Assembly: GCF_036669915.1 (NCBI RefSeq) | Contig: NC_089318.1 | Location: 23,714,725 to 23,778,724, forward strand | Source: Pocillopora verrucosa | Taxonomy: Eukaryota > Cnidaria > Anthozoa > Scleractinia > Pocilloporidae | DNA: 64,000 nucleotides | Direction of reading: 5' to 3' | Shown: positions 12,911 to 64,000 of the stretch, piece after piece | Layout of the letters: each line of letters opens with the position of its first letter | Position numbering within the stretch: the stretch's first letter is position 1 | Notes under the pieces: model-generated | The model's database searches: none | The model's input: the letters and a program-made list of their open reading frames with translations, nothing else | What the model was told of the DNA's origin: nothing | Made by a program: the position numbers and the translations under genes

Positions 12911-13741
12911 CGAATGTGATTTCCACATGTTCCTCTCTGCTTGTGGATTCTGCAACTGTGATCTCCACATGTCTTCAATTCTATCAGGGTGTCGATCCTT
13001 AGTAACTGCAAACAGTCTCCGAGCAGCATCTTGCATTTGAACCTTAGCATGTTCTACAGCAGCCTTTTCAATTTGAATCAAGTGTTCATTGAAAGATTTC
13101 TTGGCTACTGGTGGGGGCAGATTCATCCTGGCACAAAAATCTGTTAATCCAGCCTGGCCAAGTTTCTGGGAAGCCAACACTGACCTCCTGTTGACTTCAT
13201 GTGCTCCTCCACCAACATCTCCAAGTTTCTTGCTGGTTTTCAAGTCAGTCTCATGATTACAAATTGAGCATTTCAGAAAAAGACATTCAGCAAGTCCTTC
13301 CCTCTGATAATCTCGCTAATAGAGTTTGAGAGTTGATTGGGGTTTGCGACAAGAGCTGCAAATTGCAGCTGAAGCAATACCTTCACTCAACAGAGTGGTA
13401 TCTTGCAATTTAAACCCGCTTGCAACTTGGGAAACATCTGCTGATGCGACTCTGAGTCCAACGCTTATCGACTTCTTTCGGGTCAGGGTACCTTCTTGCT
13501 CTTCAAAACTCGAAAACGAAGAATTGTGAAGTTTTGAGGCGGAAACATTCACTCTCACAGGCAAATCTTTGGTTTCACGGAGGTCAATTTCGTCTCTGGC
13601 TTCACCTTCGCCGCCGCCATCTTGATCTGCTGGCGCTTTCTTTGTCAGCTTTGGCCGTTTGTTTGCCCCATTGTGGCCACAAAAACCTTTTCTTTTTTTT
13701 CTTCTTACCGATCTAAATTTCCTTTTTCCATGTTCCACCAT
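12906..13741 (-). pseudogene. 'Mutator-like' transposase, N-terminal half, broken
   Basis: Translation from an ATG at 13741 gives a basic start, then CSSCRKPQSTLKLY, an in-frame TAG (13316-13318), then RDYQREGLAECLFLKCSICN. The frame goes on through GDVGGGAHEVNRRSVLAS, LTDFCARMNLPPPV and IEKAAVEHAK. This run is characteristic of the cnidarian transposase family annotated as a Mutator-like domain: paired CxxC motifs, then the 'EVNRRSVLA' and 'F..MNLPPP' blocks. After about 12970 the expected continuation is lost and LINE sequence takes over. The TAG replaces what is normally a Gln-like position before RDYQ. With the stop and the truncation it cannot make a full transposase. Confidence 0.75.
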
Positions 13742-21000: not shown

Positions 21001-24000
21001 CAGCATCTTTAGCTAAATATATGTATAAAGGAAAGCAAAAACCAAAACATTTATTGAGATTTCTCATAAAATACCACAAGCAAGGGATATTGAAACAGGT
21101 GATTTTACATGTATCAGAGAGGGACTCAAACTGAAAAAGAATTGGTCCTTTTCAAACTACAGCACTCACTCTTAATCACATGACAAAGTAGGAGATAAAA
21201 CAAATTCTCAAAACACTAAACAAATAAATTTTTAAGAAAATTCTGTGACACCTCTTGAAAAGCAGCAAATTGGCTGTCTTGCAATACAATCTAATAATGG
21301 CTGGCCACGCAGCCCAGCCATCATTAAACAAATCATTTAAAAATTTCTGAAAGTTGAATGCTGGACTATGCAACGTAATCCTTGTTTTTATTTCTTAGAT
21401 GGTGTGATATAAATTATTACAACACTATACAAACTGAACAAAACAGGTAGCAAACACATATTTTGCTCTTACGATTGAGGGAAATGACACTAAGCTTTCC
21501 TTGATTCAGTGTAACTCCATTATATTTAACAACTGCATTGAAACATCCTTCATCATCCAGCTTTATGTGGAGGACATTATTCTTGTCAAATCCATCTGGT
21601 AGAATCACAAGTTCAGGGTCTGTCTTTTCACTGCTTCCAATCTGACAAAACAATTAAAATATAAATGTGTCAACTTGTAGAGATAAATCCAGGAGCTTTA
21701 CACACATTAAAAAATTCACCACCCTACTAACATTTATACAGTCAATCGAAAAAATCATGTCCATGCTAAAACAAATTACTTTCTACTTTAACAGTGTATA
21801 TATTGCCATATTATTCACCAATTAAAAGCCTGTTTTTCACAAATGCCATCTATCTAACCTATAAATATTAGTTGTAACTTAAGTACTTACACTCAAGTGG
21901 CAATTCTGTCTCCTACCTCAGTTATTTCCACACAGTAGGAGTGAACATCTTGAACTGAAAGAGGACAGACATTCCCAAACTTGTCACGAGCCTCAACAGT
22001 GAGAGGAGTATATATCCCTTGCTGCACCTCAAGCAGTGAGCTGCCTTCTAGAATACTGCATTTGGATGGATCAACCACACCTGTCAATTAGTAACATCAC
22101 AAATTAAATGCAATTGCAAACCAATTTAGAATCCAATGAACAAAGAGGAAGAGTACTATTGGCTACCCCTTAAATTTGTCACATTTTCTGGACAGTATCT
22201 AACTACCTCCTGGGTGGATAGAGGCACTGTCAGAGAGAATCATGCTCCACACACAAAACCCAATAACCAGTGTAGCGTTAGAATCTGGACATTTCAATCC
22301 AGAGCCCAGCATATCAACATATTGCTGTAGCTTCTCCCATGCCCAAAAACACCCTTTTAGTTAATTTATCTAAGGATACAGAACCTGGTAAAAATGTTTT
22401 TGTAAATGGACTGTCCCTGATTGGTTTTCCCTTCACCAGAACAGATATTTTATAGGCTCCAGCCTCTCGGACAGTAAAGGAAACTCTCATGGCATTCCCA
22501 TCTCTCCATTTTTCACCACCATATTCCCGTGATGACACAATGAAGTTGTTGTTGTGCATTATTTCAACTAGGATGTAATCTTCTTTTGATACAGAATATG
22601 GAGTGGCATTCATTCTGTAAAACTAAAAGAAAACAGACAAGGCAAGAGTTAGTAATAATTTCCCAGTCTAATGTAGTTCTCCTTTTTCCTTTCACCTCCA
22701 CTGTAAGAGTTTTTCTTGCTTATTAATAAGTAATAAACTTATCAAGTGCAAAATATAAACCAAAAAAAAAGTCTTTAGCTAGTCTGATATGGTAGTGAAT
22801 TATTGAATAATGTACCATAGTATTCCTCTTCACAAATGTGTAACATACCTATTAAGTAGCTAGACAGCTATATCACAGAATGATTTCAAGTTGCAAGACT
22901 CCACGAAAGTACAAGGTCTTGCACAACAGCAGCTTTTGAGAGGTCTACATGTGATCTAGCACTGATAATATTTATGTCAGATTCCTTACAGACCTTTCGC
23001 CAGCTTGTTTTGCAAAAGACATTAAACTTACTTGCAAGCAAAAAAAAATATCACTAATAATATAAAGGCCTGTCATAAACACCACAAAATAAGGCTGGAA
23101 ATATAAATCTCATTAAACTAACTCTTTTATACATATTGCAATTTCAACAAATACCTTGAGGATAAATGACATTGATTCACCCACAATATGGGGATCTTCC
23201 CACTCCCAAATAACTTTTGTAAATGAAGGCTCAAGGGCTAAGCCAAGAACATATCCAAAGAAACTAGACTTGTGTTGCTGACTTCTGGATTTGATTCTAG
23301 AGAATCCAACACTGAGACATACCAAGAGTGCTATGCTGCCAACCATGACAAGAAGCACTCTACCTATAAATGGAGATACAGTCATTTTATTAGTCACCCA
23401 TCCTAACAACCTTAAATCATTTGGGTTCTGTTAAACATGGAAAAAACTAATAAGTTTCCCAAATGGTAACAAAAAGTTCAGGCCTTTCCTCTCCTTGGGG
23501 AAAAAAAAGACTTTAAATATTTTTTACACCTAAGCACATACTACAATTTAAGAAGCCATCTCATGGTAAGGAATGTTCTTATCAAATTATGACTTAGTAA
23601 TGTAAGTGAACTGAGTAGTTCACTGTTCTTGGAAATTCATCTTGTCTAACAGAAGTATCAACATCAAGAGTTTGTAGATTTAATTTTTGCAAATCCTTAG
23701 ATTGTCATTGGTCCACAAAAGTTAGTTTCTGCAAAAAAATCCAGAAATAAAAAAGGGAAAAACCTAAGATTTGCCATCTCTGGTGCAATTATAGCTCCAA
23801 AGGAGTAAGCTGTTTACTCCATCATGTTCATTTGTTTGTCCTTTGGACTCTGACTGTTATGAGTTCTCTGTCACTAAGACTTAGAGTGTGCTGTAACTCA
23901 ACATCTCAAGTAATACAAGCTGAGAATGTAGCATTTCTATGTTGATATACCATTACTACTGCTTGACCATGAAATTGGAAAAAAAGAAATAGTTTTCAGA

Positions 24001-25287
24001 TGTAATTTCAATTATCTTTTTTGACAAAAAAATGCTCCCAATAAACAAAAAACAGTAAAAACTCCCAAATAAAAGTTCTGCCAATTTTCAGTGCAAAATA
24101 AGTAGATGACAAAAGGGATGATTCATTCTCTTTTGCAACATAAAAAAAAAACTTACCTACAAATTTTATGCTCCACCAAGAAAAAGAAAACAACATTAAT
24201 ACACCCCTCAAAGGAGGAGAATCTACAAAGTGACCTTGTTGCTTTTCAACTGCTTCTTGAAACTTTTTAAAATCCTCATCAGTAACAATCTTTCTCAACA
24301 AATCAGATTTGTGGTTTTTTATCAATCTATCCACACTGTTTATCCCTTGTGACAACAGTTTTGAGTAATAGGTATCCAAATGAATTTGTTGTAGCCAAGA
24401 CAGAAGTTGTAGTTCAAGTCTGGCTTTCTGTACAGCCTGCTCTAGTTTTTCCTTCTCAGATGTAAATGTAAAAACTCCCCAAAATGATCCATGTCTTGTT
24501 AGAAACCTTGTAGCATCAAGGGTTGCAAACTTGACTTTAGTAAGAATACCTAAAAGAAAAATGTCATCATCATCATCATTTATAAACAACACAGAAAAAT
24601 ACCTTAAAAAGATCACGATATCAGGGTCCAAATTGCAATCAACTAAAAATTTACTGATTGTCACCAGAATTTTAACTCTGGTCGCCAATAGGCGACTCAT
24701 TTCAAGTTTGAAATTACGTATGTCCCCACTAAGAAACCAACCAGCACCCTATCATTATAGCTTGTTTTTTCGAATCGTATAGGCTACGTTATATGCTATA
24801 AATTATCAAACAATATCATATACTGACAGAAGTTATTCATTATTTATGTTGCAGAAGAATTGAATGTGATAAAAGCAAAAACAAAGAGTGGGAAAGCCTC
24901 ACCTATAAATAATTCTATAAGATATATTTTTAACCGTAAATAACAGCATATCAGAAATACTTAATATAACCATCGTAAGTCCTTGCCATGTACTGGATCA
25001 TGGTAAACTGTGGGGAGTTCTCTAAATTATTACGTTTGAGATGTTATTTAAAGAAATTCGATTATGCCTCATGAAGTAACAATAAATTACATTGCACAAT
25101 ACTTAAATGCAAGGAACTAACTATCACACATACCAAATTTGTGCAATTTAGTCTCATAATCCAGAAGATCGTGCTGCTCTAACCAAGAATGCAATTCAGC
25201 TTTTTCTTCGCGAACAATAAAATAAACTTGCATGCGATAAAACAGAAACCCCAAACCAAAAATCAAAACCGCGATCTTGTTAAGCAT
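15096..25287 (-). CDS. AREL1: AREL1-like HECT E3 ubiquitin ligase, 19 exons, apparently intact
   Basis: HECT ligases take ubiquitin onto a cysteine and pass it to substrates; vertebrate AREL1 is an anti-apoptotic ligase. Exons from the 5' end: 25134-25287, 24157-24549, 23155-23363, 22385-22622, 21917-22080, 21473-21641, 20759-21012, 20597-20674, 20151-20292, 19390-19508, 18981-19059, 18735-18847, 18199-18378, 17507-17632, 17032-17161, 16508-16566, 16309-16395, 15689-15864, 15096-15198. They total 2973 nt: 990 residues plus TAA, with all phases matching. In order: a first membrane segment (about 4-22), two SAM-like stretches (about 35-150), a second membrane segment (about 184-203), filamin-like repeat (about 253-440) and HECT (about 640-990). 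HECT marks include [43 protein letters not shown] and LPTAHTC. The catalytic Cys is residue 957, its codon split by the last intron. One donor (after 22385) is GTTCTG, unusual but phase-consistent. Vertebrate AREL1 is 823 aa; the extra length is N-terminal. Confidence 0.92.
15283..15425. repeat. Fragment of a dispersed repeat shared with 49862 and 58284
   Basis: Contains the words found in the foldback repeat at 58284-58559 (gccac/ggtaaa, gctgacgt, agcgttagccct, gtcagagcga). It lies in the last AREL1 intron. Mismatches show it is old. Possibly part of a Penelope-like terminal repeat. Confidence 0.55.
17334..17410 (+). repeat. tRNA-related repeat (degenerate SINE head), with copy at 44200
   Basis: It has tRNA-like word order: an A-box-like TGAGCTCAAATGG (17347-17359), then tagagcatctggact and a degenerate B-box-like GAGCTTTGGAT (17392-17402). 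The same segment occurs at about 44200-44275 in the duplicated unit, so it predates the duplication. It lies in an AREL1 intron. It is not a functional tRNA gene. Confidence 0.5.
19132..19192. repeat. 24-bp perfect hairpin in AREL1 intron
   Basis: The arms at 19132-19155 and 19169-19192 are exact reverse complements with a 13-nt loop. The outer few bases (gcacgt at both sides) extend the pairing with a gap. It looks like a small foldback element. The corresponding stretch is deleted from unit 2. Confidence 0.75.
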
Positions 25288-28200
25288 CTTGGGTAAATAT
25301 TATGCATAGCCGAGCTCTTAGCCGCTTTAGAGACGTTAGAGCTTTCCCGTTATTTCTTCATCCATATAAATCAGAATTTTCTGCATGAATTTTACCTCGC
25401 ATGGTCTAGAAGGTTTCGATTTCAAACAAAATTTATAAATTTAAATTCGCGGGCGCAAGTGCTGGTCAGTTGAAGGACGATCGCGTGACAGCTCCATTAC
25501 TTTCGTGACTAGGTGTCCGTGACATCAGTAGATTTCTAAGGTTTTCCTGATCAGTTTCATCAACTGTCCAAATTTGAGCGTGACTGACATTTTCAATGAT
25601 TCAGAATCACCATGAGGCGTGCTATATTTACACTCTAATCTGAAGAGTAAAATGTTATAAGTCTCTCTAACCTATATCAGTCAATCTGTATAGCTGTAAT
25701 TAATTGCTTGATCAAAGCAAGGGTCGAGTAAGCGTTCAATCTCGATCTGATAAAAAATAAGCTTTGTGTTTTGAATCCAACTGAAAATGAAAATAAGTTT
25801 CCTGAACAATCCGATTTTATAAGAGCACCATTGTATTCATTTTAGGTTTTATCCAACCCTATTTTAAAGATTTCTGTGACGTAGTTTGTCCGTTACAATT
25901 TATAAGCGTTTTACATGCAGCTCATAAAGTCGTCGAGTTACTACTCTCTGAACACTTTTGCTTGATTTTATTTGAATTCTCCTTTCTAGCTATCAGAAAA
26001 TCCTTGTAAATCACGAATAAAGAATTTGGTGTCTGATCAAGAGAACATCGTTAGGCTGATAAAAGTGTTTCTTCTCGTCACGTTTTTGCTAGTTAATGTA
26101 TAAGTATTACCAAGAGAATTTACTTGGCAATCATTTCTGAGGATCGGAGTTGTTTGTCATCACTTTGTGAAAGGCAAAACAGGAGAAACAAAAATATGGG
26201 GTTGGGTTGTGGAGGATACTGTAACAACTTACGAAAAGTTTTAACCTTCCACGTTTCCTCCTTCGAGCAAGAAATTTAAATTTCCATTTTCTGGAAATTT
26301 TGCCCGCGTTATTCAGTTTCCGTAGTGATCAAACCACGTGCCATTAAATTTGTATTTCGCTCCATCACGACAATTGAAAGTGAAGGGAACTATCTCATTT
26401 CTATACATAAAAAAACATATGACTCGCCGGTGTAAAACTTGATTCTTTTGCTCAGTAAAGTTTCCTAGTTCTATCATTTTTTTCCTAGTTTCTATTATAC
26501 GTATGAACATTTTCTGGTTGTAGTTGCACGAGAGCGAGAATTGTCAGGCCGAAATTCTTAAACTTGAACTTGAAGATTTTGAAAATATTCCAACTTGTGC
26601 AATGCAAAAGCTGGAGCCAGTAATAAACATGAAAGAACACGTTTTATAATAAAATCATTACAATCGTATCAGGAAACGCTATCGGTTAGAAACTGAAATT
26701 AAAGTATGAAAATAAGCCCATGCAAATAAGGAAAAATGTCGTTTTTAGACAAAACTAAGTCTTTCATTTTCCGACATCGACATTATAAAATGGTGATAAC
26801 GCGAGAAGAAGCTGTATTGAATCTTTGACTGGTGGATTTATTGTTGACTGGTCCGAGTTAAAATTCAGAGGAAGCAGCTCTCCGACCGGAGTTTTATTTC
26901 AAGGCATTCAATTCTTGGTAAGTAATAACTAGAAAACTGATTCAGTATTGATCGTGTCATGTTGTCCTTCAGAAGAATTTTAACTGAAATGGTTGTAATA
27001 GGAGTTTCCAGTGAGGTTTTGAGCTACTGTAAAAATAAAAAAAATAATGAAAAAAAATGAAAAAAAAAGGCTTCGAGCTTTCGACGATCCACGGCATGAT
27101 CAGGAAGCTTAAGGCTCCACTGGATACTTATATACCATATCATTTCACATTACGTTTCTATATGAGAGCATCGATCATATGTATACGAGTAAAATATGAC
27201 GGAACCGAATTAAGTGCCGCTCTCGCTAAGAGCAGTCCTCTCGACTTCTCGTCGCTAAAAAGTTTTCTTTGATTTTTTGCCCATGAAAAGGGTTTAGAAC
27301 GCATGTTTCAAAAATCGGGCTAGTTAATGGGGTTCCGTGTGCTAAATTTCGGGAGAAACTGCAAGAATTCTTTCAGGGTGTATGCGTGTTGTTTTGTAAA
27401 TATCAACACTGTAACGTATTTTAACTCGTTTGTGTGTCCTTTTAAGCAACGCAATATGTCTGTAATGACCAGAGTGCCAAATTTTATTCTTCAATTTTGA
27501 TCTTCTCCACACTGTGCTTAATTCATAATCTGATATTTTAACGTAAATTATCGAGAAGGCGCCTTCCGATCACCTCTGTTTACTTTGTAAGTCACGCAAG
27601 CGCGCAAGCGTTACGACCGATCACGTTTACGCAACGTTTTAGGACAACTCGGCACCTATTCTCCATTCAGTTGTTATGAAAACCTAAAATCCTCAACATA
27701 GAAGATATAAACTACGCACTAATATGCTTTTTCAGCCAGATTAACGCCTGCGTTTTGAGAATTCTTTCGTCCAAATTAGTGAACATTTGATATGCGAGTT
27801 AACGTCGAAGAGAAGGGTCTCCTCTGACACGCTGGTATGAAAAATATTTCAGCTGAAGTTTCCATATTTTGTCTGTGAACTAACTGAATACATGTTGTAA
27901 CTTTTAGCAAGATAGAATTCCGTGAGCTATATTATTGCAGTCGCTGCGCGCTGGACAAAATCTGTGAAATTTACACTCGGTTTGTGGCGACGCAAAAAGA
28001 GAGAATTGGAGAACTACTAAACTATTTTTGAAACATGTGTCCTAAACCTTTTTCATGGGCAAAAAAATAAAAGAAAACTTTTTTCCGACGGGAAGTCGAG
28101 AGGGCCGCTCTTGGCGAGAGCGGCACTTAATTATTCACACCACACGTGATAACATTATAATTAAAAATTAATAGTGAAATTTTTATCCCTTATCCAATGA

Positions 28201-28433: not shown

Positions 28434-31400
28434 ATGGCAGAAAAAAAATCTGACCTGCTAGAGCAACGAAAGCAAGATCTCGTCAATGCGAAACTCGATG
28501 GCGACCCAAGGGAAGAAATGTTCGCTTACAAAAATCTTGGCAAAGCGTACAACGAGGTTGATGATACTAAAAAAGCGATAGATAACTTCATACACAGTTT
28601 AAGGATTGCCCAACAAGAACACGACAGAGCTTACGAAGGCAAAGTGTCCCTCATTCTTGGATTGGCTTATGGTAAACTCCAAGATTGTAAACAAGCCACA
28701 ACACATTTTAACAAATGCCTCACCATCTACAAAGAGTTAAGAGATAGAGCTGGAGAGAAAGATGTACACCACGTTCTTGGCCATTGTTATCAGTTCGTGG
28801 TTGATTATAAAAAAGCCATAACGCACTATAACAAATTCCTTATTATTTCAAAAGAACTAGGAGACCGAAATGAAGAGGGACGTGCAAACCAACACATTGG
28901 CCAATGCTATAATGCACTCAGTGATTATAAAAGAGCCGTAGAACACTTCAACAAGTACCTTGTTATCTCCAAAGAACTAGAAGACCGAGATGGAGAGAGA
29001 CGTGCAAACCAAAACCTTGGCCAATGCTATCATGCACTCAATGATTGTAAAGAAGCCGTAGAGCACCTCAACAAATACCTTGATACCTCCAAAGAACTAG
29101 AAGACCGACATGGAGAGAGAAGTGCAAACCACGACCTTGGCCATTGCTATCATACACTAAGTGATTATAAAGGAGCCGTAGAACACTTCAACAAGTACCT
29201 TGTTATCTCCAAAGAACTAGAAGACCGAGATGGAGAGAGACTTGCAAACCAGCACCTTGGCCGATGCTATCTTAAACTCAGTGATTATAAACAAGCCGTA
29301 GAACACTTTAACAAGTACCTTGTTATCTCCAAAGAACTAGGAGACCGAGATAGCGAGGGAAATGCAAACCACAACCTTGGCCATTACTATCATGAACTCA
29401 GTGATTATAAACAAGCCGTACAACACTTCAACAAGTACCTTGTTATCTCCAAAGAACTAGGAGACCGAGATAGCGAGGGACGTGCAAACCGCGACCTTGG
29501 CCATTGCTATGATGCACTCAGTAATTATAAACGAGCCGTAGAACACTTCAACAAGTACCTTGTTATCTTCAAAGAACTAGGAGACCGAGATGGAGAGAGA
29601 CGTGCGAACCACAACCTTGCCGAATGCTATTGTGCTCTCAGTGATTATAAACGAGCCGTAGAACACTGCAACAAGTACCTTGTTATCTCCAAAGAACTAA
29701 GAGACCGAGATGGAGAAAGACTTGCAAACCACGACCTTGGCGCATGCTATTTTGTACTCAGAGATTATAAAGGAGCCGTAGAACACCACAACAAGTACCT
29801 TGTTATCTCCAAAGAACTTGGGGACAGAGTGGGAGAAGGACTTGCAAACATTTTCCTTGGATATAGTTATTACGCCCTCTGTGATTATAAACAAGCCATA
29901 CAGCACGCGAAGCAAAGTGTGATCATTGCCAAAAATACTGGGAATAAAGTTGAGGAAGGAAAAGCTACATTGTTCTCTGGACGTATTTATCAATATCTCG
30001 GCGATTATGAAAAAGCAAGAGAGGTCTATATGCAACAACTTGCCATCGCCAAAGACGTAGGGGACTGCGATGGTGAACTAGACGCTTACAACAGACTTGG
30101 GGTTGTTTATGACACCCTTGGTAAGTTCAGCACAGCCAAAGATTACTATGACACAGAACTTGCCATGGCTAAAGAAATCAAGAATAGGAAAGCAGAGGCA
30201 AAGTCCTACCTCGGTCTTGGCTCAGCTCATCTGCAGCGAAGAGATTTTATGAAAGCCATCGAATTCTTTGGCCAATTTCTTAGCATTGCTGAAGAAGAGG
30301 AGGTAGGAGAGCCAGAAGAATGTGTCTACCACAGGTTGGCTGAGGCCTATCTTGGACTCAATAATTTCAGGGAAGCTTCTAACTGCGGTGCAAAAAGTGT
30401 TGTCTGGGCAGAAGAAAAAGGAATCAAATGTTCCGAGAGATGGGAGAATAACCTTGGCCGTACTATGGAAAGCTTCAATTTCGTACATGAAGCTCTAGAT
30501 CATTATCGGTCCGCTTTAAAGGTCTTAAATCATGAGAGGGACATTATGAAGGCTGAGGACGCTCACAAAATATGCTTCCGAAATTCTCGTCAGTCCACGT
30601 ATGATAACGTATGCAGAACTTTGTTGAAACTTTCAAACTTTGGCGAGGCTTTGTGTGTTGTTGATCAAGGAAGAGCACAAGTCTTACTAGATTACATGAA
30701 GCAAAAATATCAGATGGAATTTCCTCTGCCCAAGACATCAGAACCAGACATAGCACGTTTGGCATCCACACAAACTATTTTCATTGCACTTGAAAAAGAG
30801 AAGATTAATATATGGCTGTTGACCAGTAACGGAAACGATGTTCAGTTTCGACAAAAGGAAGCAAATCACGATTACAAGTTCGGCAATGATCCCTGTCCCT
30901 GCTGTTTAAAATGTTTGAAAAAAGCAGCTTTCAAAGAGAATGAGTTTGCTACTCGAGTTATCTGCGAGGATCGTTCTATGAATACATTGAAGCCGGATCT
31001 GTTGGAGCAAGACGAAGACTCTTGTCATGAAATGTCGGCTTTACTGTCAGAGGACCACTTTCTTCTGGATATGCCTAGAGAGGAATCGCCACTGGACAAA
31101 GAAACTTGTCACGAAATGTTGAAGTCACCACAAAGTCAGAGGAATTCCTTGCGGCTGTTGTATGACGCTGTTATTGGTCCCATCGCGAACGAGTTGAAAG
31201 GTGATGAATTACTCATTATTCCCGATGGTCTACTAGGTCTGGTTCCCTTTGCTGCCTTCGTCGATAAAGATTCCAAGTACCTCAGCGAAACGTTTAAGAT
31301 TCGCATTGCTCCGTCACTGACCACTTTGAAACTAGTCAACGATTGTCCTGAAAACTACCATTGTAAGAGTGGGGCGCTGCTTGTGGGTAATCCATGTTTC

Positions 31401-32024
31401 GAGGAGATAACAGATCTCCTTGGAATACCTCGGTTTCAGCCATTGCCTTACGCGGAAAAGGAGGTGCAAATGATCGGAGAAACTATTAATGCCACACCAC
31501 TCGTCGGAAAGGAAGCGACTAAAGACGAAGTACTGAAACGCATTGCTTCTGTCGCTTTGGTCCACATCGCAACGCATGGAAGCGCGGAGACAGGTGACAT
31601 TTGTTTGGCCCCAAATCCTTCAAGGAAGTACTGGAAACCGGAGAAGGAAGACTACATGCTAAAAATGTCAGATCTCAAAGCTCTGAAGCTCCGAGCAAGA
31701 CTTGTCGTGCTTAGCTGTTGTCACAGTGGTCGAGGGGACGTTTCTGCCGAAGGCGTGGTCGGTATTGCATGGGCTCTCTTGGCTTCTGGTGCCCGCTCTG
31801 TTCTGGCGTCACTCTGGGCAATTGGTGACGAGGCTACAATGGAGTTGATGAAAACATTCTATAAACATCTCAGAGATGGCGACAATGCTAGTACGGCTCT
31901 CAATAAAGCTATGAAATGCCTGAGAGAATCTGAGAAGTTTAGTGCTCCAAAGAACTGGGCTCCTTTTGTGCTCATTGGTGATGACGTTACGCTTGAATTT
32001 GAAGAAGACATCGAACAATGCTAA
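28434..32024 (+). CDS. TPR-CHAT protein 1: tandem TPRs with C-terminal caspase-like CHAT domain
   Basis: A single uninterrupted exon of 1196 codons. The start is aaacATGGc, the first ATG of the frame conserved with the second copy. From about residue 25 to 720 there are about 16-17 TPRs of 40 residues, several nearly identical at DNA level with a strict 120-nt period (28879-29880). TPRs bind protein ligands. A linker carries a Cys cluster (C821, C823, C824, C827) and two CHEM motifs (864, 892). A CHAT domain follows from about 900 to the end: [25 protein letters not shown] with His1048, and [11 protein letters not shown] with Cys1096 as the likely catalytic pair, then [14 protein letters not shown] and [16 protein letters not shown] is a caspase/separase-clan protease fold. 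In bacteria TPR-CHAT proteins (for example Csx29 of Craspase) are ligand-triggered proteases. The animal substrate is unknown. It resembles genes often annotated 'TPR protein 28-like'. Confidence 0.92.
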
Positions 32025-32448
32025 AGAAATGAGAACAGTGTTCCGTCACTTGATCATTTACACGTGGATTGACTTTTCTATGTAGACAAGTTCAAGGCGC
32101 TGGTTTAGAGCGCAATTTTGCGATCCTTGTATTATTTTATTCTGTGATTTTTTTCAAAGTATGTCGTGAAAATCCCCGTTATCAAGATGAGCTTTTAGTA
32201 CCTGAACATTTTAATTTGTCGAGTTGACCAGTGATTACGTAGCAAAAAGGTGAACAATGATACAACTAGTTGATGTAGCTTCATACACGACTTTGAAGCG
32301 TTGTGACTGATTTAATGACTAACAGGCGACAAAACGGCGCTCAGAAGTAAACCTTTCAAAAAGTCAAATTTTTCTTGCGCATCATAATTAAGTTCCCTCG
32401 TAGTTCGAGTTTGCATTAATGTACGATAATGAGTTTGAAACAAAGGAA

Positions 32449-39188: not shown

Positions 39189-39325
39189 AGTCTCTGTGGC
39201 TCAGTGGTAGAGCATTGGAGCATGGAATCCAAAGGTCTGAGGTTTGATTCCTCATGGGGACTCAGAATTTTTCCTCTGACCCACACTTGTGACAAGGCGA
39301 AAAACGTCTTTCTCTAAGAATCACT
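39189..39325 (+). repeat. tRNA-derived SINE
   Basis: A clear A box (TGGCTCAGTGG, 39197-39207) and B box (GGTTTGATTCC, 39241-39251) at tRNA spacing, followed by a non-tRNA tail. The acceptor stem does not close, so it is a SINE head rather than a tRNA gene. It lies in a SEL1L intron on the opposite strand. Confidence 0.75.
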
Positions 39326-44559: not shown

Positions 44560-47500
44560 GGCGACGAGGATGGGATTCCTAAGTTCGATTGTCACTCGGA
44601 ACCTGCCACGTTAGGACCACGCTGGACGCGATGGTTCACATCTTTTGAATTGTTTGCCGATGGCAAAGGTCTGATTATCACTGAAGGTACAAATGCAACA
44701 ACCAGACAACGAAGAAGAGCTATGCTACTCCATTTAGCGGGACAAGATGTGCAAGAAATTTTCTCTACTCTCGCGAACACCGGCGAAGCAACGGACTACG
44801 CCGCCGCTGTAACAGCACTGAATGGCTATTTTCTCCCCAAAGTTAACTCCGCTTTTGCGCGTCAAAAATTTCACCGACTCCAACAACAGCCAGGTGAGAC
44901 CGTTTTGCAGTTTGTAACCCGACTGAGAAAAGAAGGGAAAGACTGTAATTTTGGGGCAGACTTTGACAATCAGATAAGAGATGCGATTTTATGCAAATGC
45001 AGGTCAGATTATGTCAAACGTAAATTGCTTGAAGAAAGAGATGAACTTACTCTCGCACGCACATTAGAGCTTGCAGAACAGTGTGAAAGTGTAGAACACC
45101 AAATGTCTCAGCTTAGCTTGAGTGAACAGACTACAGAAGCACACAGGGTCTATGAAAAACCTGGGAGACCAAAAGATCAACAAAGAAACAAAGAGAGCAA
45201 GAACAGAGACAGTCAGTGTCCTCGTTGTGGGTGGAGTGGTCACCTTGGTGGAGATCCGAAATGCCCTGCCAGAGGTCAAACATGTAAAAAATGTAAAAAG
45301 AAAGGTCACTTTGCTAGTGTCTGCAAAACCAAACCAAAGAAGCCAGGAGTCAATCAGGTGCAAGAAGAACAAAAACCCGATGGGGAGCAAGTCGATTATG
45401 CATTCAGGGTCACCAATAAAGGTCAGTCAAATATGCTCAAATTGTCTGTGGGTGGAGTAGAATTGGAAATGTTGGTGGATTCTGGGGCCACCAATAACAT
45501 TATCGATGAATGTACATGGGAAGATCTGAAGGCTAAAAAGATCAAGTGTAAATCACAAGCAGCTCCCGTTGACAGAAAATTGTACGCTTATGCATCCAGC
45601 AAACCCCTCCCAGTAAAAGGTAGCTTCACATGTGAGGTACTAGTGGGCAGAGGAAGAGTCCAGACCGAATTCCTGGTTATCAAAGGAAAGGGAATACCAC
45701 TCTTAAGCAAAGACACCGCAATGAGGTTGGGGGTGCTGAAAATAGGTGTTGACATTGCCACAATTGCTGAAGGCAAACAGACGCTGCAGCAAAAATTCCC
45801 TGAAGTGTTTAGTGGGATAGGAAAGTTGAAGTCCAAGCAAGTAACATTGCACATAGACGAAACAGTGAAACCAGTAGCCCAACCCCTGAGGCGAATTCCT
45901 TTCAATCTGCAAGAGAAGGTAGAAAAGAAGGTTCAAGAGTTGTTGAATTGTGATATTATAGAGGAAGTAGACGGGCCTACACCATGGGTAAATCCAGTAG
46001 TGATCATACCAAAGGCAGATGGTGACATACGACTCTGCATCGATATGAGACAAGCGAACAAGGCCATAGTACGTGGCAGATACCCAATACCAACTGTAGA
46101 TGAACTGCTACACAATATGAATGGTTCCAAAGTCTTTAGCAAGTTAGACTTAAAGTGGGGATACCACCAATTGGAACTTAATTCAGAGTCACGACAGATC
46201 ACCACCTTTGTGACGCACAAAGGCTTGTACAGGTACAAACGTCTATTATTTGGCGTGTGTTCAGCGAGTGAGCAGTACCAACATGAGATATCCACAGCTT
46301 TAGCTGGAATAGAAGGAGTCGATAATATATCTGACGACATCATAGTACATGGCCCGGATCAGGCAACTCATGACCAACGCCTATATAAGACAATGGAACG
46401 CCTCAAGCAGCATGGCTTAACTCTCAATGCTGACAAATGCCTATTCAATGTGGACAGAGTGATTTTCATGGGAATTCTTCTCTCTGAAAAAGGGATTGGC
46501 CCAACAGAAGAAAGAATCAGAGCCTTGCAAGAAACAAGGGAACCTGCCACCGTCAGCGAAGTAAGAAGCTTCCTGGGATTGGCCAATTATAGCAGCAGGT
46601 TTATTCCTCACTTCGCTACTATCACTGAGCCACTAAGGAGCTTGACCAGAAAGGCTGTTCCATTCCACTTTGGACCTGAGCAGAAAACCGCTTTTAAGAT
46701 TCTGAAACAGAGCATGGCTGACGCAGGAACACTTGCATATTTTAACAAAGGCGCAGCAACCAAAGTAATAGCTGATGCCAGTCCAGTCGGCCTCGGAGCT
46801 GTGTTACTACAGAACCAAAATGAAGCATGGGTGCCAATTTGCTATGCAAGCCGCAGCTTGACAGAGTGTGAGCGCAAGTACTCCCAGACCGAAAAGGAAG
46901 CCCTCGCTCTCGTTTGGGCATGTGAGAGGTATCATGCATACATTTATGGCATGAAATTTGATCTGGTAACTGACCACAAACCGTTGGAGGTCATCTACGG
47001 GCCACGTTCCAAGCCCTGTGCCCGCATCGAACGGTGGACAATACGGTTACAACCCTACGACTTCCGAATTGTATATACTCCAGGGCAGAATAATATAGCT
47101 GATCCTCTTTCCCGCCTGCTTAAGCAAGACAAAGTGACGAGTCATCCACATGGGGCAGAAGAGTACATCCGATTCGCAGCTATCAGTGCCACTCCCCAAG
47201 CATTAACCACGAGAGAAGTCGAAGAAGCATCTGCAACAGATGAAGAATTAAAAGTCCTGAGAGAAGCAATCAAAACTGGCAGATTTGAGAAGTGCAAAAA
47301 CTATGCACCAGCCGCAGGAGAACTGTGCGTGATTGGACAGCTAGTCTTGAGAGGTACCCGTATTGTGTTACCAAACAAACTCAGAGCTCAGGCAATCAGC
47401 TTAGCCCATGAAGGACACCTAGGAATTGTGGGAACAAAGCAAAATTTAAGAAGTAAGGTGTGGTGGCCTCGTATGGATAAGGCAGCAGAGAAATTCTGCA

Positions 47501-48642
47501 AGTCCTGTCACGGATGTCAACTGGTATCTCGCCCAGACCCACCTGAGCCATTGAGATCCACGACATTACCAGAAGGTCCTTGGCAAGACCTAGCTATAGA
47601 CCTCCTAGGACCACTTCCTTCGGGACACTCAATCATTGTTGTTGTGGACTACTACAGTCGTTATTATGAGTACGCCATCATGATGTCAACCGTCACAGAG
47701 AAAGTAATTGACAACCTGGAAGAGATTTTCAGCCGCCATGGCCTTCCTCTGACCATAAAGTCCGACAATGGTCCACAATTCCGCTCCGAAGAATTCCGGG
47801 AATATTGTAAGCAGAATGGAATTGTTCACACCAAGACCACACCAAAATGGCCTCAAGCCAACGGGGAGGTAGAGAGACAAAATGCATCGCTGATGAAGAG
47901 GATCCGCATTGCCCAAGCCGAAGGATTAGACTGGGTGAAGGAGCTAAGAAGATATGTGACTAAATACCGAGGTATTGATCACGCGACAACCGGTAAGAGC
48001 CCTGCGGAATTATTGTTTAACAGAAAGATGAGAGGAAAGCTACCAGAGCTACGTGCCGACCATCACTTGGACCTGGAAACTCGAGATAGAGATGCCGAAG
48101 TGAAAGCAAAGACCAAAGTAATAGCTGATAAATCCATGAATGCAAAACCATCAGAAGTTCAAGTTGGTGATCAAGTCCTGGTGAGGCAAGAGAAAAGAGA
48201 CAAGTTTTCCACGCCATTTAATCCAGTACCATTCCAAGTGGTTAGCAAGACCGGTAACAGTGTTGTTGTGGAAACTCCAGGTGGAACGCAGTATTCAAGG
48301 AATACATCCCATGTCAAGAAGTTTGTGAGCCCTGACAATCCGGAAGAACCACCTGTCAGTGTCGATGTACCGACAACACCTGAAATTACCGTGGTACCAA
48401 ATCAAGTGATGAGTGGATCTACACCAGTAGTGCCTACAACACCTCCCAGTAGACCCCTAACTCATCTCACACCTTTAGCACAAGCAAGTGCAGGAAGCAA
48501 ATCTGGTACAACCTCTGCTAGTAAGAATGCAGCAGTTGATCAAGCAACAGTACCTAGCCCACCAGCAACACCAAAAGGTGGAAGACCTCAGAGACAGAGG
48601 AGACTCCCTGGGAGATATAAAGACTTTGTTTTAAAATGTTGA
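44560..48642 (+). CDS. Gypsy Gag-Pol polyprotein
   Basis: Gag packages the RNA; Pol supplies protease, reverse transcriptase, RNase H and integrase. The frame is open from inside the 5' LTR, and gag-like sequence (IPKFDCHSEPATLGPRW) starts near 44575. There is no in-frame ATG before 44722, so initiation is unclear. Counting from the TTG at 44650: two zinc knuckles (CPRC from 190, then CKKCKKKGHFASVC), protease DSGAT at 277-281, and RT with FSKLDLKWGYHQ and the catalytic SDDI (D562, D563; usually YxDD or VDD). RNase H follows (ADASPVGLGAVLL, TEKEALALVWACERY). Integrase has a zinc-binding HH-CC segment (HEGH..CKSCHGC) and the D984, D1039, E1075 triad with exact D-35-E spacing. A chromodomain is not evident. 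No stop or frameshift anywhere, so it may be competent. Confidence 0.93.
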   Translation, partial: GDEDGIPKFDCHSEPATLGPRWTRWFTSFELFADGKGLIITEGTNATTRQRRRAMLLHLAGQDVQEIFSTLANTGEATDYAAAVTALNGYFLPKVNSAFARQKFHRLQQQPGETVLQFVTRLRKEGKDCNFGADFDNQIRDAILCKCRSDYVKRKLLEERDELTLARTLELAEQCESVEHQMSQLSLSEQTTEAHRVYEKPGRPKDQQRNKESKNRDSQCPRCGWSGHLGGDPKCPARGQTCKKCKKKGHFASVCKTKPKKPGVNQVQEEQKPDGEQVDYAFRVTNKGQSNMLKLSVGGVELEMLVDSGATNNIIDECTWEDLKAKKIKCKSQAAPVDRKLYAYASSKPLPVKGSFTCEVLVGRGRVQTEFLVIKGKGIPLLSKDTAMRLGVLKIGVDIATIAEGKQTLQQKFPEVFSGIGKLKSKQVTLHIDETVKPVAQPLRRIPFNLQEKVEKKVQELLNCDIIEEVDGPTPWVNPVVIIPKADGDIRLCIDMRQANKAIVRGRYPIPTVDELLHNMNGSKVFSKLDLKWGYHQLELNSESRQITTFVTHKGLYRYKRLLFGVCSASEQYQHEISTALAGIEGVDNISDDIIVHGPDQATHDQRLYKTMERLKQHGLTLNADKCLFNVDRVIFMGILLSEKGIGPTEERIRALQETREPATVSEVRSFLGLANYSSRFIPHFATITEPLRSLTRKAVPFHFGPEQKTAFKILKQSMADAGTLAYFNKGAATKVIADASPVGLGAVLLQNQNEAWVPICYASRSLTECERKYSQTEKEALALVWACERYHAYIYGMKFDLVTDHKPLEVIYGPRSKPCARIERWTIRLQPYDFRIVYTPGQNNIADPLSRLLKQDKVTSHPHGAEEYIRFAAISATPQALTTREVEEASATDEELKVLREAIKTGRFEKCKNYAPAAGELCVIGQLVLRGTRIVLPNKLRAQAISLAHEGHLGIVGTKQNLRSKVWWPRMDKAAEKFCKSCHGCQLVSRPDPPEPLRSTTLPEGPWQDLAIDLLGPLPSGHSIIVVVDYYSRYYEYAIMMSTVTEKVIDNLEEIFSRHGLPLTIKSDNGPQFRSEEFREYCKQNGIVHTKTTPKWPQANGEVERQNASLMKRIRIAQAEGLDWVKELRRYVTKYRGIDHATTGKSPAELLFNRKMRGKLPELRADHHLDLETRDRDAEVKAKTKVIADKSMNAKPSEVQVGDQVLVRQEKRDKFSTPFNPVPFQVVSKTGNSVVVETPGGTQYSRNTSHVKKFVSPDNPEEPPVSVDVPTTPEITVVPNQVMSGSTPVVPTTPPSRPLTHLTPLAQASAGSKSGTTSASKNAAVDQATVPSPPATPKGGRPQRQRRLPGRYKDFVLKC

Positions 48643-53600: not shown

Positions 53601-55743
53601 ACAATTTCAACAAATACCTTGAGGATAAATGACATTGATTCACCCACAATATGGGGATCTTCCCACTCCCAAATAACTTTTGTAAATGAAGGCTCAAGGG
53701 CTAAGCCAAGAACATATCCAAAGAAACTAGACTTGTGTTGCTGACTTCTGGATTTAATTCTAGAGAATACAACACTGAGACATACCAAGAGTGCTATGCT
53801 GCCAACCATGACAAGAAGCACTCTACCTATAAATGGAAATATAGTCATTTTATTAGTCACCCATCCTAACAACCTTAAATCATTTGGGTTCTGTTAAATA
53901 TGGAAAAAACTAATAAGTTTCCCAAATGGTAACAAAAAGGTTCAGGCCTTTCCTCTCCTTGGGGAAAAAAGATTTTAAATATTTTTTACACCTAAGCACA
54001 AATTACCATTTAAGTAATTGTCTCATGGTAAGGAAAGTTCTTATCAAATTATGACTTAGTAATGTAAGTGAACTGAGTAGTTCACTCTTCTTGGAAATTC
54101 ATCTTGTCTAACTCAGGGGAAACCAGTGTTCTTCAGAGAAGTATCAACATCAAGAGTTTGTAGATTTAATTTTTGCAAATCCTTAGATTGTCATTGATCC
54201 ACAAAAGTTAGTTTCTGCAAAAAAATCCAGAAATAAAAAAGGGAAAAACCTAAGATTTGCCATCTCTGGTGCAATTATAGCTCCAAAGGAGTAAGCTGTT
54301 TACTCCATCATGTTCATTTGTTTGTCCTTTGGACTCTGATCGTTATGAGTTCTCTGTCACTAAGACTTAGAGTGTGCTGCAACTCAACATCTCAAGTAAT
54401 ACAAGCTGAGAATGTAGCATTTCCATTTTGATATACCATTACTACTGCTTGACCATGAATTGGAAAAAAAGAAATAGTTTTCAGATGTAATTTCAGTTGT
54501 CTCTTTTGACAAAAAAATGCTCCTGATAAACAAAAAAAAAAACTCCCAAATAAAAGTTCTGCCAATTTTCAGTGCAAAATAAGTAGGTGACAAAAGGGAG
54601 GATTCATTCTCTTTTGCAACATAGAAAAAAACTTACCTACAAATTTTATGCTCCACCAAGAAAAAGAAAACAACATTAATACACCCCTCAAAGGAGGAGA
54701 ATCTACAAAGTGACCTTGTTGCTTTTCAACTGCTTCTTGAAACTTTTTAAAATCCTCATAAGTAACAATCTTTCTCAACAAATCAGATTTGTGGTTTTTT
54801 ATCAATCTATCCACACTGTTTATCCCAGTTGCTACAAAAGTTTTGAGTAATAGGTATCCAAATGAATTTGTTGTAGCCAAGACAGAAGTTGTAGTTCAAG
54901 TCTGGTTTTCTGTACAGCCTGCTCTAGTTTTTCCTTCTCAGATGTAAATGTAAAAACTCCCCAAAATGATCCATGTCTTGTTAGAAACCTTTTAGCATCA
55001 AGGATTGCAAACTTGGCTTTAGTAAGAATACCTAAAAGAAAAATGTCATCATTTATAAACAACACAGAAAAATACCTTTAAAAGATTACGATATCAGGGT
55101 CCAAATTGCAATCAACTAAAAATTTACTGATTGTCACCAGAATTTTAACTCTGGTCGCCAATAGGCGACTCATTTCAAGTTTGAAATTACGTATGTCCCC
55201 ACTAAGAAACCAACCAGCACCCTATCATTATAGCTTGTTTTTTCGAATCGTATAGGCTACGTTATATGCTATAAATTATCAAACAATATCATATACTGAC
55301 AGAAGTTATTCATTATTTATGTTGCAGAAGAATTGAATGTGATAAAGGCAAAAACAAAGAGGGGGAAAGCCTCACCTATAAATAACTCTATAAGATATAT
55401 TTTTAACTGTAAATACTTAATATTACCATCGTAAGTCCTTGCCATGTACTGGATCATGGTAAACTGTGGGGAGTTCTCTTAATTATTATGTTTGAGATGT
55501 TATTTAGAGAAATTCGATTATGACTCATGAAGTAATTACAAATTACATTGCACAGTACTTAAATGTAAGGAACTAACTATCACACATACCAAATTTGTGC
55601 AATTTAGCCTCATAATCCAGAAGATCGTGCTGCTCTAACCAAGAATGCAATTCAGCTTTTTCTTCGCGAACAATAAAATAAACTTGCATGCGATAAAACA
55701 GAAACCCCAAACCAAAAATCAAAACCGCGATCTTGTTCATCAT

Positions 55744-57392
55744 CTTGGGTAAATATTATGCATAGCCGAGCTCTTAGCCGCTTTAGAGACGTTAGAGCTT
55801 TCCCGTTATTTCTTCATCCATATACATCAGAATTTTCTGCATGAATTTTACCTCGCATGGTCTAGAAGGTTTCGATTTCAAACAAAATTTATAAATTCAA
55901 ATTCGCGGGCGCAAGTGCTGGTCAGTTGAAGGACGATCGCGTGACAGCTCCATTACTTTCGTGACTAGGTGTCCGTGACATCATTAGATTTCTAAGGTTT
56001 TCCTGATCAGTTTCATCAACTGTCCAAATTTGAGCGTGACTGACATTTTCAATGATTCAGAATCACCATGAGGCGTGCTATATTTACACTCTTATCTGAA
56101 GTGTAAAACTGTTATAAGTCTCTCCAACCTATATCAGTCAATCTGTATAGCTGTAATTAATTGCTTGATCAAAGCAAGGGTCGAGTAAGCGTTCAATCTC
56201 GATCTGATAAAAAATAAGCTTTGTGTTTTGAATCCAACTGAAAATGAAAATAAGTTTCCTGAACAATCCGATTTTATAAGAGCACCATTGTATTCATTTT
56301 AGGTTTTATCCAACCCTATTTTAAAGATTTCTGTGACGTAGTTTGTCCGTCACAATTTATAAGCGTTTTACATGCAGCTCATAAAGTCGTCGAGTTACTA
56401 CTCTCTGAACACTTTTGCTTGATTTTATTTGAATTCTCCTTTCTAGCTATCACAAAATCCTTGTAAATCACGAATCAAGAATTTGGTGTCTGATCAAGAG
56501 AACATCGTTAGGCTGATGAAAGTGTTTCTTCTCGTCACGTTTTTGCTAGTTAATGTATAAGTATTACCAAGAGAATTTACTTGGCAATCATTTCTGAGGA
56601 TCGGAGTTGTTTGTCATCACTTTGTGAAAGGCAAAACAGGAGAAACAAAAATATGGGGTTGGGTTGTGGAGGATACTGTAACAGCTTACGAAAAGTTTTA
56701 ACCTTCCACGTTTCCTCCTTCGAGCAAGAAATTAAATTTCCATTTTCTGGAAATTTTGCCCGCGTTATTCAGTTTTCGTAGTGATCAAACCACGTGCCAT
56801 TAAATTTGTATTTCTCTCCATCACGACAATTAAAAGTGAAGGGAAGTATCTCATTTCTATACATAAAAAACATATGACTCGCCGGTGTAAAACTTGATTC
56901 TTTTGTTCAGTAAAGTTTCCTAGTTCTATCATTTTCCTAGTTTCTATTATACGTATGAACATTTTCTGGTTGTAGTTGCACGAGAGCGAGAATTGTCAGG
57001 CCGAAATTCCTAAACTTGAACTTGAAGATCTTGAAAATACTCCAACTTGTGCAATGCAAAAGCTGGAGCCAGTAATAAACATGAAAAAACACGTTTTATA
57101 ATAAAATCATTACAATCGTATCAGGAAACGCTATCGGCAAGAAACTGAATTTAAAGAATGTAAATAAACCCATGCAAATAAGAACAAATGTCATTTTTAG
57201 TCAAAACTAAGTCTTTCATTTTCCGACATCGACATTATAAAATGGTGATAACGCGAGAAGAAGCTGTATTGAATCTGTGACTGGTGGATTTATTGTTGAC
57301 TGGTCCGAGTTAAAATTCAGAGGAAGCAGCTCTCCGACCGGAGTTTTATTTCAAGGCATTCAATTCTTGGTAAGTAATAACTAGAGAACTGA
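55744..57392. other. 5' flank of the AREL1 pseudogene, copy of 25288-26936
   Basis: Nearly co-linear with unit 1 over 1.6 kb; no coding sequence recognised. The high conservation matches the age of the duplication and cannot by itself prove regulatory constraint. Confidence 0.6.
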
Positions 57393-57397
57393 TTCAG

Positions 57398-57512
57398 TGT
57401 TACAACTATTGTAACGACGTAATATCACGGTGGTCAAGAAACCTGTTTTCTTTATTTGTAAATCTTAGAACATCGCGCACATTGTGACGTCATAATTACA
57501 TAATTTATGACA
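57398..57512 (-). repeat. 3' LTR of BEL/Pao element
   Basis: 115 bp; shorter than its partner by small deletions. Shares the internal words gtcaagaaacctgttttctt and cacattgtgacgtcataatt. Confidence 0.88.
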
Positions 57513-58506: not shown

Positions 58507-58551
<45 letters not shown>

Positions 58552-60250: not shown

Positions 60251-60326
60251 GGAATTCTAGAGAGAATTCTAGAGAGGATATGTGGCCATTCTCTCGTGTT
60301 TCAATTTCTTGTCGTATGGCTACCCT

Positions 60327-61711: not shown

Positions 61712-64000
61712 ATGGCAGAAAAAAAGTCTGACCTGCTAGAGCAACGAAAGCAAGATCTTGTCAATGCGAAACTCGATGGCGACGCAAGGGAAGAAATGTT
61801 CGCTTACAAAAATCTTGGCGAAGTGTACAACGAGGTTGATGATACTAAAAGAGCGATAGAAAACTTTATACACAGTTTAAGGATTGCCCAACAAGAACGC
61901 GACAGAGCTTACGAAGGCGAAGTCTCGTGGGATCTTGGAGATGCTTACTATGCACTCAGTGATTATAAACAAGCCGTAGAACACCACAACAAGTACCTTC
62001 TTATCTCCAAAGAACTAGGAAACCGAGATGGAGAGGGACATGCAAACCATCACCTTGGCCGATGCTATCATGCACTCAGTGATTATAAACAAGCCGTAGA
62101 ACACCACAACAACTACCTTGCTATCTCCAAAGAACTAGGAAACCTAGGTGGAGAGGGAAATGCAAACCGCGACCTTGGCAAATGCTATTATGAACTCAGT
62201 GATTATAAACAAGCCGTAGAACACCTCAAAAAGTACCTTGTTATCTCCAAAGAACTAGGAGACCGAGATGGAGAGGGACGTGCAAACCACGACCTTGGCC
62301 AATGCTATTATGAACTCAGTGATTATAAACAAGCCGTAGAACACTTTAACAAGTACCTTGTTATCTCCAAAGAACTAGGAGACCGAGGTGGAGAGGGACG
62401 TGCAAACCATCACCTTGGCCGATGCTATCATGCATTCACTGATTATAAACAAGCCGCAGAACACTTTAACAAGTACCTTGTTATCTCCAACGAACTAGGA
62501 GACCGAGGTGGAGAGGGACGTGCAAACTACAGCCTTGGAAGATGCTATCATGCACTCAGTGATTACAAACAAGCCATCGAACACTTTAACAAATGCCTTA
62601 TTATCTTCAAAGAGTTGAGAGAGTTGCCCATAGCTGATTACAAAAAAGCCATGGCGCACCTCAACAAATTCCTTTTTATTTCAAAAGAACTTGGAGACAG
62701 AGATAGAGAGGGACGTGCAAACCACGACCTTGGCCAATGCTATTATAAACTCAGTGATTATAAACAAGTCGTAGAACACTTGAACAAGTACCTTGTTATC
62801 TCCAGGGAACTAGGAGACCGAGGTGGAGAGGGACATGCAAACGACGACCTTGGCCGATACTATTATGAACTCCGTGATTATAAACAAGCCGTAGAACACC
62901 ACAATAAGTACCTTGTTATCTCCAAAGAACTAGGAGACCGAGATGGAGAGGGACATGCAAACCACCGCCTTGGCCTATGCTATAATAAACTCAGTGATTA
63001 TAAACAAGCCGTAGAACACCACAACAAGTACCTTGCTATCTCCAAAGAACTAGGAGACCGAGATGGAGAGGGACATGCAAACCACGCCCTTGGCCATTTC
63101 TATGATAAATTCAGTGATTATAAACAAGCCATCGAACACTACAACAAGTACCTTGTTATCTCAAAAGAACTTGGGGACAGAGTGGGAGAGGGAAAGGCAA
63201 ACCTTCAGCTTGGACATTGTTATCGCGTCCTCAGTGATTATAAACAAGCCATATGGTGCGCGGAGCAAAGTCTGATCATTGCCAAAAATATTGGGGATAA
63301 AGTTGCGGAAGTAAAAGTTAAAAGTTGCTTGGGCGAAACTTATCGATTTCATGTCAACGATTATGAAAAAGCAAGAGAGAACTTCATGCAACAACTTGAC
63401 ATCGCCAAAGCCGTAGGGGACCGCGATGGTGAACAAGACGCTTACTACAACCTTGGGTCTCTTTATAACATCCTCGGTAAGTTCAGCACAGCCAAAGCGT
63501 ACTTTGACAGAGAACTTTCCATTGCTAAAGAAATCAAGAATAGGAAAGCAGAGGCAAAGTCCTATTTAGGTCTTGGCCAGGCTCATCTGCTGCGAAGAGA
63601 TTTTATGAGAGCCATCGAATTCTTTGGCCAATTTCTTAGCACTGCTGAAGAAGAGGTATTAGAGACAGAAGGATATGCCTACCAAAATTTGGGTGAGGCC
63701 TATCTTGGACTCAATAATTTCAAGGAAGCTGTTAACTACGGTATGAAAAGTCTTGCCTTTGCAAAAGAAGAAGGAAAAAAATGTTGCGAGAGAATGGCGA
63801 ATATTCTCCTTGGCCGTACTATGGAAAGCTTCAATCTCCCACATGAAGCCTTGGATCATTATCGGTCCGCTTTAAAGCTCGTAAATGATGCGAGGGACAT
63901 TATCAAGGCTGAAGATGCTCACAAAATATGCATACGAAATGCTCGTCAGATTGAGTACGATGCACTGAGCAGAACTTTGCTGAAACTTTCAAACTTTGGC
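61712..64000 (+). CDS. TPR-CHAT protein 2 (partial; runs off window)
   Basis: Starts [14 protein letters not shown], as in copy 1, and stays open for 763 codons to the window end; I translated it through without finding a stop. It consists of 40-residue TPRs with a mostly strict 120-nt period. At about 62610-62660 the period breaks: KELRELPIADYKKAM replaces a full repeat, as if about 20 residues of one unit had been lost in frame. The final visible segment ([17 protein letters not shown]) is the same one that precedes the Cys-rich linker and CHAT domain in copy 1, so a CHAT domain is expected just outside the window. Repeat order and sequence differ from copy 1 in the middle while both ends match, which indicates shuffling between or within copies. 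Confidence 0.9.
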   Translation, partial: MAEKKSDLLEQRKQDLVNAKLDGDAREEMFAYKNLGEVYNEVDDTKRAIENFIHSLRIAQQERDRAYEGEVSWDLGDAYYALSDYKQAVEHHNKYLLISKELGNRDGEGHANHHLGRCYHALSDYKQAVEHHNNYLAISKELGNLGGEGNANRDLGKCYYELSDYKQAVEHLKKYLVISKELGDRDGEGRANHDLGQCYYELSDYKQAVEHFNKYLVISKELGDRGGEGRANHHLGRCYHAFTDYKQAAEHFNKYLVISNELGDRGGEGRANYSLGRCYHALSDYKQAIEHFNKCLIIFKELRELPIADYKKAMAHLNKFLFISKELGDRDREGRANHDLGQCYYKLSDYKQVVEHLNKYLVISRELGDRGGEGHANDDLGRYYYELRDYKQAVEHHNKYLVISKELGDRDGEGHANHRLGLCYNKLSDYKQAVEHHNKYLAISKELGDRDGEGHANHALGHFYDKFSDYKQAIEHYNKYLVISKELGDRVGEGKANLQLGHCYRVLSDYKQAIWCAEQSLIIAKNIGDKVAEVKVKSCLGETYRFHVNDYEKARENFMQQLDIAKAVGDRDGEQDAYYNLGSLYNILGKFSTAKAYFDRELSIAKEIKNRKAEAKSYLGLGQAHLLRRDFMRAIEFFGQFLSTAEEEVLETEGYAYQNLGEAYLGLNNFKEAVNYGMKSLAFAKEEGKKCCERMANILLGRTMESFNLPHEALDHYRSALKLVNDARDIIKAEDAHKICIRNARQIEYDALSRTLLKLSNFG

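Follow-up and report, generated by a model that had tools for sequence, protein, structure and literature searches.

The locus and its TPR-CHAT gene

The window, that is, the whole stretch of 64,000 nucleotides of Pocillopora verrucosa DNA that was analysed, contains one complete TPR-CHAT gene, the beginning of a second copy and a duplicated 5′ flank ahead of each. The features are listed below by window coordinates.

23901..26949, no strand assigned: 5′ flank preceding copy 1, with 96.4% identity to 54387–57401
28434..32024, + strand: TPR-CHAT gene (protein P0001), 1196 aa, single open coding frame from ATG to TAA
28638..29837, + strand: 40-residue TPR modules (residues 69–468); modules 149–468 are near-identical, with variable groove positions
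29838..30437, + strand: divergent TPR modules (residues 469–668), alignable between copies
30822..31082, + strand: insert in the N-terminal lobe (residues 797–883), mostly of low confidence in the model
31143..31982, + strand: CHAT domain (residues 904–1183), separase/Csx29-like fold
31575..31577, + strand: His1048, predicted catalytic histidine, codon CAT, in ATHGSAE
31719..31721, + strand: Cys1096, predicted catalytic nucleophile, codon TGT, second Cys of LSCCHSG
54387..57401, no strand assigned: 5′ flank preceding copy 2, duplicated counterpart of 23901–26949
61712..64000, + strand: second TPR-CHAT copy, first 763 codons, running off the window; complete in locus L011 (1221 aa)

The P0001 frame was free of internal stops, and a TGA was found in frame two codons upstream of its ATG. 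The N-terminus was identical among the four close copies compared. The earlier note had called the gene intronless; this holds for the coding part, where the frame is uninterrupted, while the 5′ untranslated part may still hold an intron. Based on Pfam, the long TPR array expected ahead of the CHAT domain was confirmed (TPR_12, 259.9 bits), and the CHAT domain itself (PF12770, residues 904–1183) scored 205.7 bits (E 1.3e-60, cut-off 24). Matches of P0001 in PADLOC and NCBIfam were to TPR-like models or to others within the TPR region, and none exceeded the NCBIfam cut-offs. The fold of full-length P0001 predicted without an alignment was unusable (mean pLDDT 37.0), and the groove positions of the TPR modules rest on PMC1261162.

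A Cys-rich stretch, CPCCLKC (window 30894–30914; Cys821, 823, 824 and 827), was found inside the low-confidence insert. It was identical in four close copies and is a possible metal or redox site.

The window also contains retroelements. A LINE-type frame (9646–13050, − strand; 1134 aa, uninterrupted) encodes endonuclease/exonuclease/phosphatase and reverse transcriptase domains, and a Gypsy-type LTR retrotransposon frame (44650–48642, + strand; 1330 aa, uninterrupted) encodes an aspartyl protease (weak match), reverse transcriptase, RNase H and integrase. A broken BEL/Pao-type element with Peptidase_A17, DUF1759, DUF5641 and a weak integrase match (57859–60866, − strand) lies directly upstream of the second TPR-CHAT copy. 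In addition, a tRNA match (39190–39263, + strand; Rfam, 49.3 bits) was found, with an anticodon unresolved by ARAGORN.

Predicted active site and gene family

The earlier note had read ATHGSAE and LSCCHSG as a His/Cys pair in the order of CHAT proteases. Both codons were confirmed, and the pair falls in the right place in the fold and the alignment: it was invariant in an alignment with 51 bacterial CHAT domains, and in a comparison with Csx29 His1048 aligned to H585 and Cys1096 to C627. Since the second Cys of LSCCHSG is invariant against the bacterial domains and falls on Csx29 C627, and the first is replaced by Ser in the neighbour copy L011, the second is taken as the nucleophile. The structure comparison that the note had proposed as a check gave a predicted CHAT fold matching both Csx29 and separase, with the pair in place. 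A profile score above the curated PF12770 cut-off and the fold match together rule out a chance likeness to CHAT. Based on sequence and model, the domain is a caspase/separase-like protease domain, with His and Cys in the corresponding order and the predicted active-site pair intact. The sequence match of P0001 to separase was weak (E 0.011–0.014), and, unlike in separase, its array consists of near-identical TPR modules in a long series.

A first look at the genome (353 Mb, 52 contigs) gave 503 CHAT candidates. The best 135 of these were scored; all 135 were above the cut-off and without internal stops, and, being the best-scoring places, they are biased to good copies and represent a lower bound on the family. 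Together with the second copy from 61712, this bears out the claim that the gene is duplicated, and the family count proposed in the note shows it to be large. The members are clustered: 103 of the 135 had another listed member within 100 kb, as against a mean of 10 and a maximum of 24 in 200 random placements.

The expansion of TPR-CHAT genes in corals is already known (PMC12314368, PMC9145168, PMC6208414). Two Acropora species are reported to have 276 and 304 such proteins, encoded in tandem clusters and variable in TPR length, while most metazoans outside anthozoans have one or two copies; human TTC28 is named as a putative homologue (PMC12314368). An expansion in Montipora and a potential apoptotic-signalling or bleaching role in Pocillopora are also described (PMC9145168, PMC6208414). 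P0001 and its relatives have in common with this TPR-CHAT/TTC28-like family a long N-terminal TPR array of variable length, one C-terminal CHAT domain and hundreds of clustered copies (PMC12314368, PMC9145168, PMC6208414), and from copy number and architecture, as compared with PMC12314368, we infer that they belong to it. Among the titles, abstract openings and passages covered, those of the three coral papers included, with supplements and most subscription journals outside, none presented a test of the catalytic pair or of groove selection in the coral family.

The two window copies have 3.05 kb of 5′ flank in common at 96.4% identity, but their 3′ flanks (window 32025–32441 for copy 1) are only 85.6% identical; the 3′ flank of copy 2 is 97.8% identical to that of L017, on another contig. 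The loci look mosaic, as if they exchanged sequence or were duplicated in several steps, which fits the non-allelic recombination proposed for TPR-CHAT duplications (PMC12314368). Because flanking DNA is common to the copies, they arose by DNA duplication, and a retrocopy origin of the uninterrupted gene is ruled out.

Conservation was assessed in P0001 and, out of the 134 remaining scored places, in 34 (ranks 1–8, 10–21 and 122–135), with CHAT identities to P0001 going down to 47%. The His was conserved in 35/35 and the Cys in 33/35 of these members of a family of at least 135. A total of 74 columns, the His included, were conserved in at least 34 of the 35, so that the Cys column is less strict than these. 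The outcome that the earlier note had named as refuting its reading, a fold lacking the pair or its loss in most members, did not occur. Two members, L017:6256-7179 (FSHSG) and L038:480-1340 (CSHSG), retain the CHAT fold and the His, but their nucleophile Cys is replaced by Ser; they are predicted to be inactive pseudoproteases. Protease function therefore cannot extend to all members.

Selection on the CHAT domain and the TPR groove

The CHAT domain is under constraint while the TPR array diversifies. For the last 300 aa, dN/dS was 0.20, 0.33 and 0.56 when P0001 was compared with each of its three close copies, with a median of 0.38 (range 0.07–0.59) over 97 paralog pairs with dS of 0.05–0.6. 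The L011/L017 pair gave 1.12 on only 15 and 4 changes, at a dS of 0.020, outside that range. In the TPR part ahead of the linker, dN/dS was 0.98–1.38. Within modules 469–668, pN/pS reached 2.20 between the window gene and L011 (one-sided Fisher p 0.0025) and 1.95 between the window gene and L017 (p 0.012), both p values being uncorrected for six tests; the other four copy pairs gave non-significant values of 1.00–1.38.

The TPR module of P0001 has 40 residues, and positions 2, 5, 9, 12 and 13 were used as the groove set. They were chosen beforehand and afterwards checked against PMC1261162, according to which positions 2, 5, 9, 12, 13, 33 and 34 of 34-residue TPRs, on the concave face, are the most variable, and positions 2, 5, 6, 9, 12 and 13 make contacts in crystal structures. 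Positions 33 and 34 were omitted; the residues there are invariant in the P0001 array. In the eight modules of residues 149–468, pN/pS was 3.14 in the groove versus 0.74 in the rest, and 19 of 658008 five-position sets were as variable as the groove set. Outside it, positions 19, 24 and 38 were variable too, position 19 to the same degree as the groove positions. The seven TPR signature positions gave a pN/pS of 1.47, at a low pN (0.084).

A looser choice of modules made 27 of the 35 genes testable; groove pN exceeded pS in 21, the groove ratio exceeded that of the rest in 24, and the rank p was below 0.01 in 19. The looser module pattern fixes six positions, and the test was repeated on contiguous runs using free positions only. 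Then, in all 26 genes testable (of 35), groove pN was higher than pN at the other free positions, with a rank p below 0.05 in 24 and below 0.01 in 17; it exceeded pS in 20 arrays and did not in six. These figures are descriptive, as the genes are related and the module pairs non-independent. The claim of diversifying TPRs is thus supported, and the diversification falls on ligand-groove positions. Among bacterial control arrays, like modules were numerous enough in three of 77 proteins, and these three likewise had a higher pN in the groove than elsewhere. Ligand-facing positions of TPRs vary generally (PMC1261162), and a general TPR effect may also be behind the pattern seen here. For this reason, the groove pattern points to diverse ligands and not to immunity as such.

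Proposed function and its alternatives

Based on the above results, we propose with moderate confidence that P0001 is a one-chain sensor-protease, in which a TPR array for variable ligands switches a CHAT protease with a defence or death output. The first step would be the binding, by the TPR array, of a variable protein ligand, which could be of microbial, symbiont or non-self origin or derived from stress. Binding would shift the linker and open the resting, autoinhibited CHAT active site, by analogy with Csx29, a ligand-switched protein whose resting CHAT is opened by non-self RNA (PMC9729208). Then, Cys1096, activated by His1048, would cleave a small number of host proteins, perhaps a single one, and this cleavage may set off defence or regulated cell death, as in a fungus in which a TPR-bearing CHAT protease activates gasdermin (PMC12881547, PMC10197012). 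Duplication at the DNA level would multiply the copies and yield many sensors on one effector kind, and the Cys-to-Ser minority would bind without cutting, as decoys or regulators.

The known systems resemble this protein in different ways. With Csx29 of the type III-E CRISPR Craspase, P0001 has in common the fold and the catalytic pair; however, Csx29 acts bound to gRAMP/Cas7-11 and is RNA-switched (PMC9729208), and no such gene was found by Pfam among the nine window ORFs of at least 150 aa, which comprise only TPR-CHAT, retroelement and unassigned ORFs. In the fungal proteins, too, a CHAT protease is joined to TPRs or other repeats, with a proposed sensor-executor logic (PMC12881547, PMC10197012). 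Their genes cluster with gasdermin genes, whereas no gasdermin match lies near the P0001 gene: the one exon match in the genome, where split exons can be missed, is on contig C13, with the nearest scored CHAT place about 209 kb away, and the P0001 gene is on C7. Consequently, gasdermin adjacency gives no support here. A bacterial target of a diversity-generating retroelement with CHAT and TIR also links a diversified sensor to a CHAT protease (PMC10907252), but there the retroelement diversifies a lectin domain, while in the present family the differences lie at TPR positions, among duplicated repeats and among copies of the gene.

The invariant pair, the fold match, the CHAT constraint, the groove-focused change, the stop-free clustered family and the Csx29 and fungal precedents argue for the sensor-protease. 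Against it stand the generality of the groove pattern among TPRs, the six of 26 arrays in which groove pN did not exceed pS, the variable positions 19, 24 and 38, a TPR pN significantly above pS in only two of six copy pairs, the Cys column at 33/35 and the lack of a gasdermin match beside the gene. The innate-immune or cell-death role suggested in the earlier note is still a putative one, on better grounds than before. More tentatively, the family could be a repertoire of one-chain immune receptors, hundreds in number, whose hypervariable TPR grooves would recognise diverse non-self ligands and directly switch the CHAT protease, with Cys-to-Ser decoys and with inter-locus exchange renewing the repertoire; this larger proposal is possible, and we hold it with less than even confidence. 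If true, such a repertoire would amount to an NLR-plus-caspase pathway condensed into a single protein, corals would hold a large set of receptor-proteases built like bacterial and fungal defence proteins, and there would be a bearing on coral disease, bleaching and symbiont choice. The intact pair, the constrained CHAT and the groove-focused change allow annotations such as 'apoptosis?' and 'cell cycle?' to be replaced by a claim that can be tested, namely that many copies are sensor-proteases with different ligands.

The same machine could have another target, with algal symbionts or other colonies (allorecognition) sensed instead of pathogens. An Acropora TTC28 gene is listed under establishment and maintenance of symbiosis (PMC10363134), and fungal heterokaryon incompatibility uses highly variable TPR or WD-repeat sensors (PMC10907252); the window itself favours no particular ligand, and we regard this alternative as rather unlikely. 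It is distinctly unlikely that the proteins are binding scaffolds whose CHAT fold is preserved because it serves assembly or signalling, catalysis being of no importance. Such a role would suit the two Ser-bearing members, given that Cys-to-Ser abolishes Csx29 activity (PMC9729208), and the L011/L017 CHAT ratio with its few changes, but His and Cys are otherwise kept across CHAT domains that have diverged to 47% identity. Very unlikely, in our judgement, are duplicated TTC28-like cell-division factors, whose ancestral cell-cycle role would be kept or split and whose expansion would reflect dosage or subfunctionalisation: human TTC28, cited as acting in cytokinesis or the cell cycle, has the same architecture (PMC12314368, PMC9145168), yet the groove-focused change in 26/26 testable arrays is unlike a housekeeping factor, as are hundreds of clustered copies where most non-anthozoan metazoans have one or two (PMC12314368). 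A neutral or selfish expansion, in which copy number is driven by repeats and duplicated flanks and the changes in the TPRs reflect relaxed constraint, accords with the mosaic flanks, the proposed non-allelic recombination (PMC12314368) and a TPR pN/pS of about 1 for four copy pairs out of six, but is most improbable given the constrained CHAT, the lack of stops in 135/135 scored (best-scoring) copies and the concentration of change on groove positions, since relaxation should affect other exposed positions equally.

In ten further members annotated with Pfam, no credible extra fused effector or adaptor domain was found, and all consisted of a TPR array and CHAT; RXLR_WY, Styelin, Tn916-Xis and other odd names, some above the cut-off, fell inside the TPR region and were taken as composition matches. 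In animals, TTC28-like TPRs are reported fused to TRADD-N, a death-signalling adaptor (PMC8195603). The arrays may be very long: L025 and L030 have frames of more than 3100 aa within the stretch fetched, with runs of 64 TPR modules ahead of CHAT.
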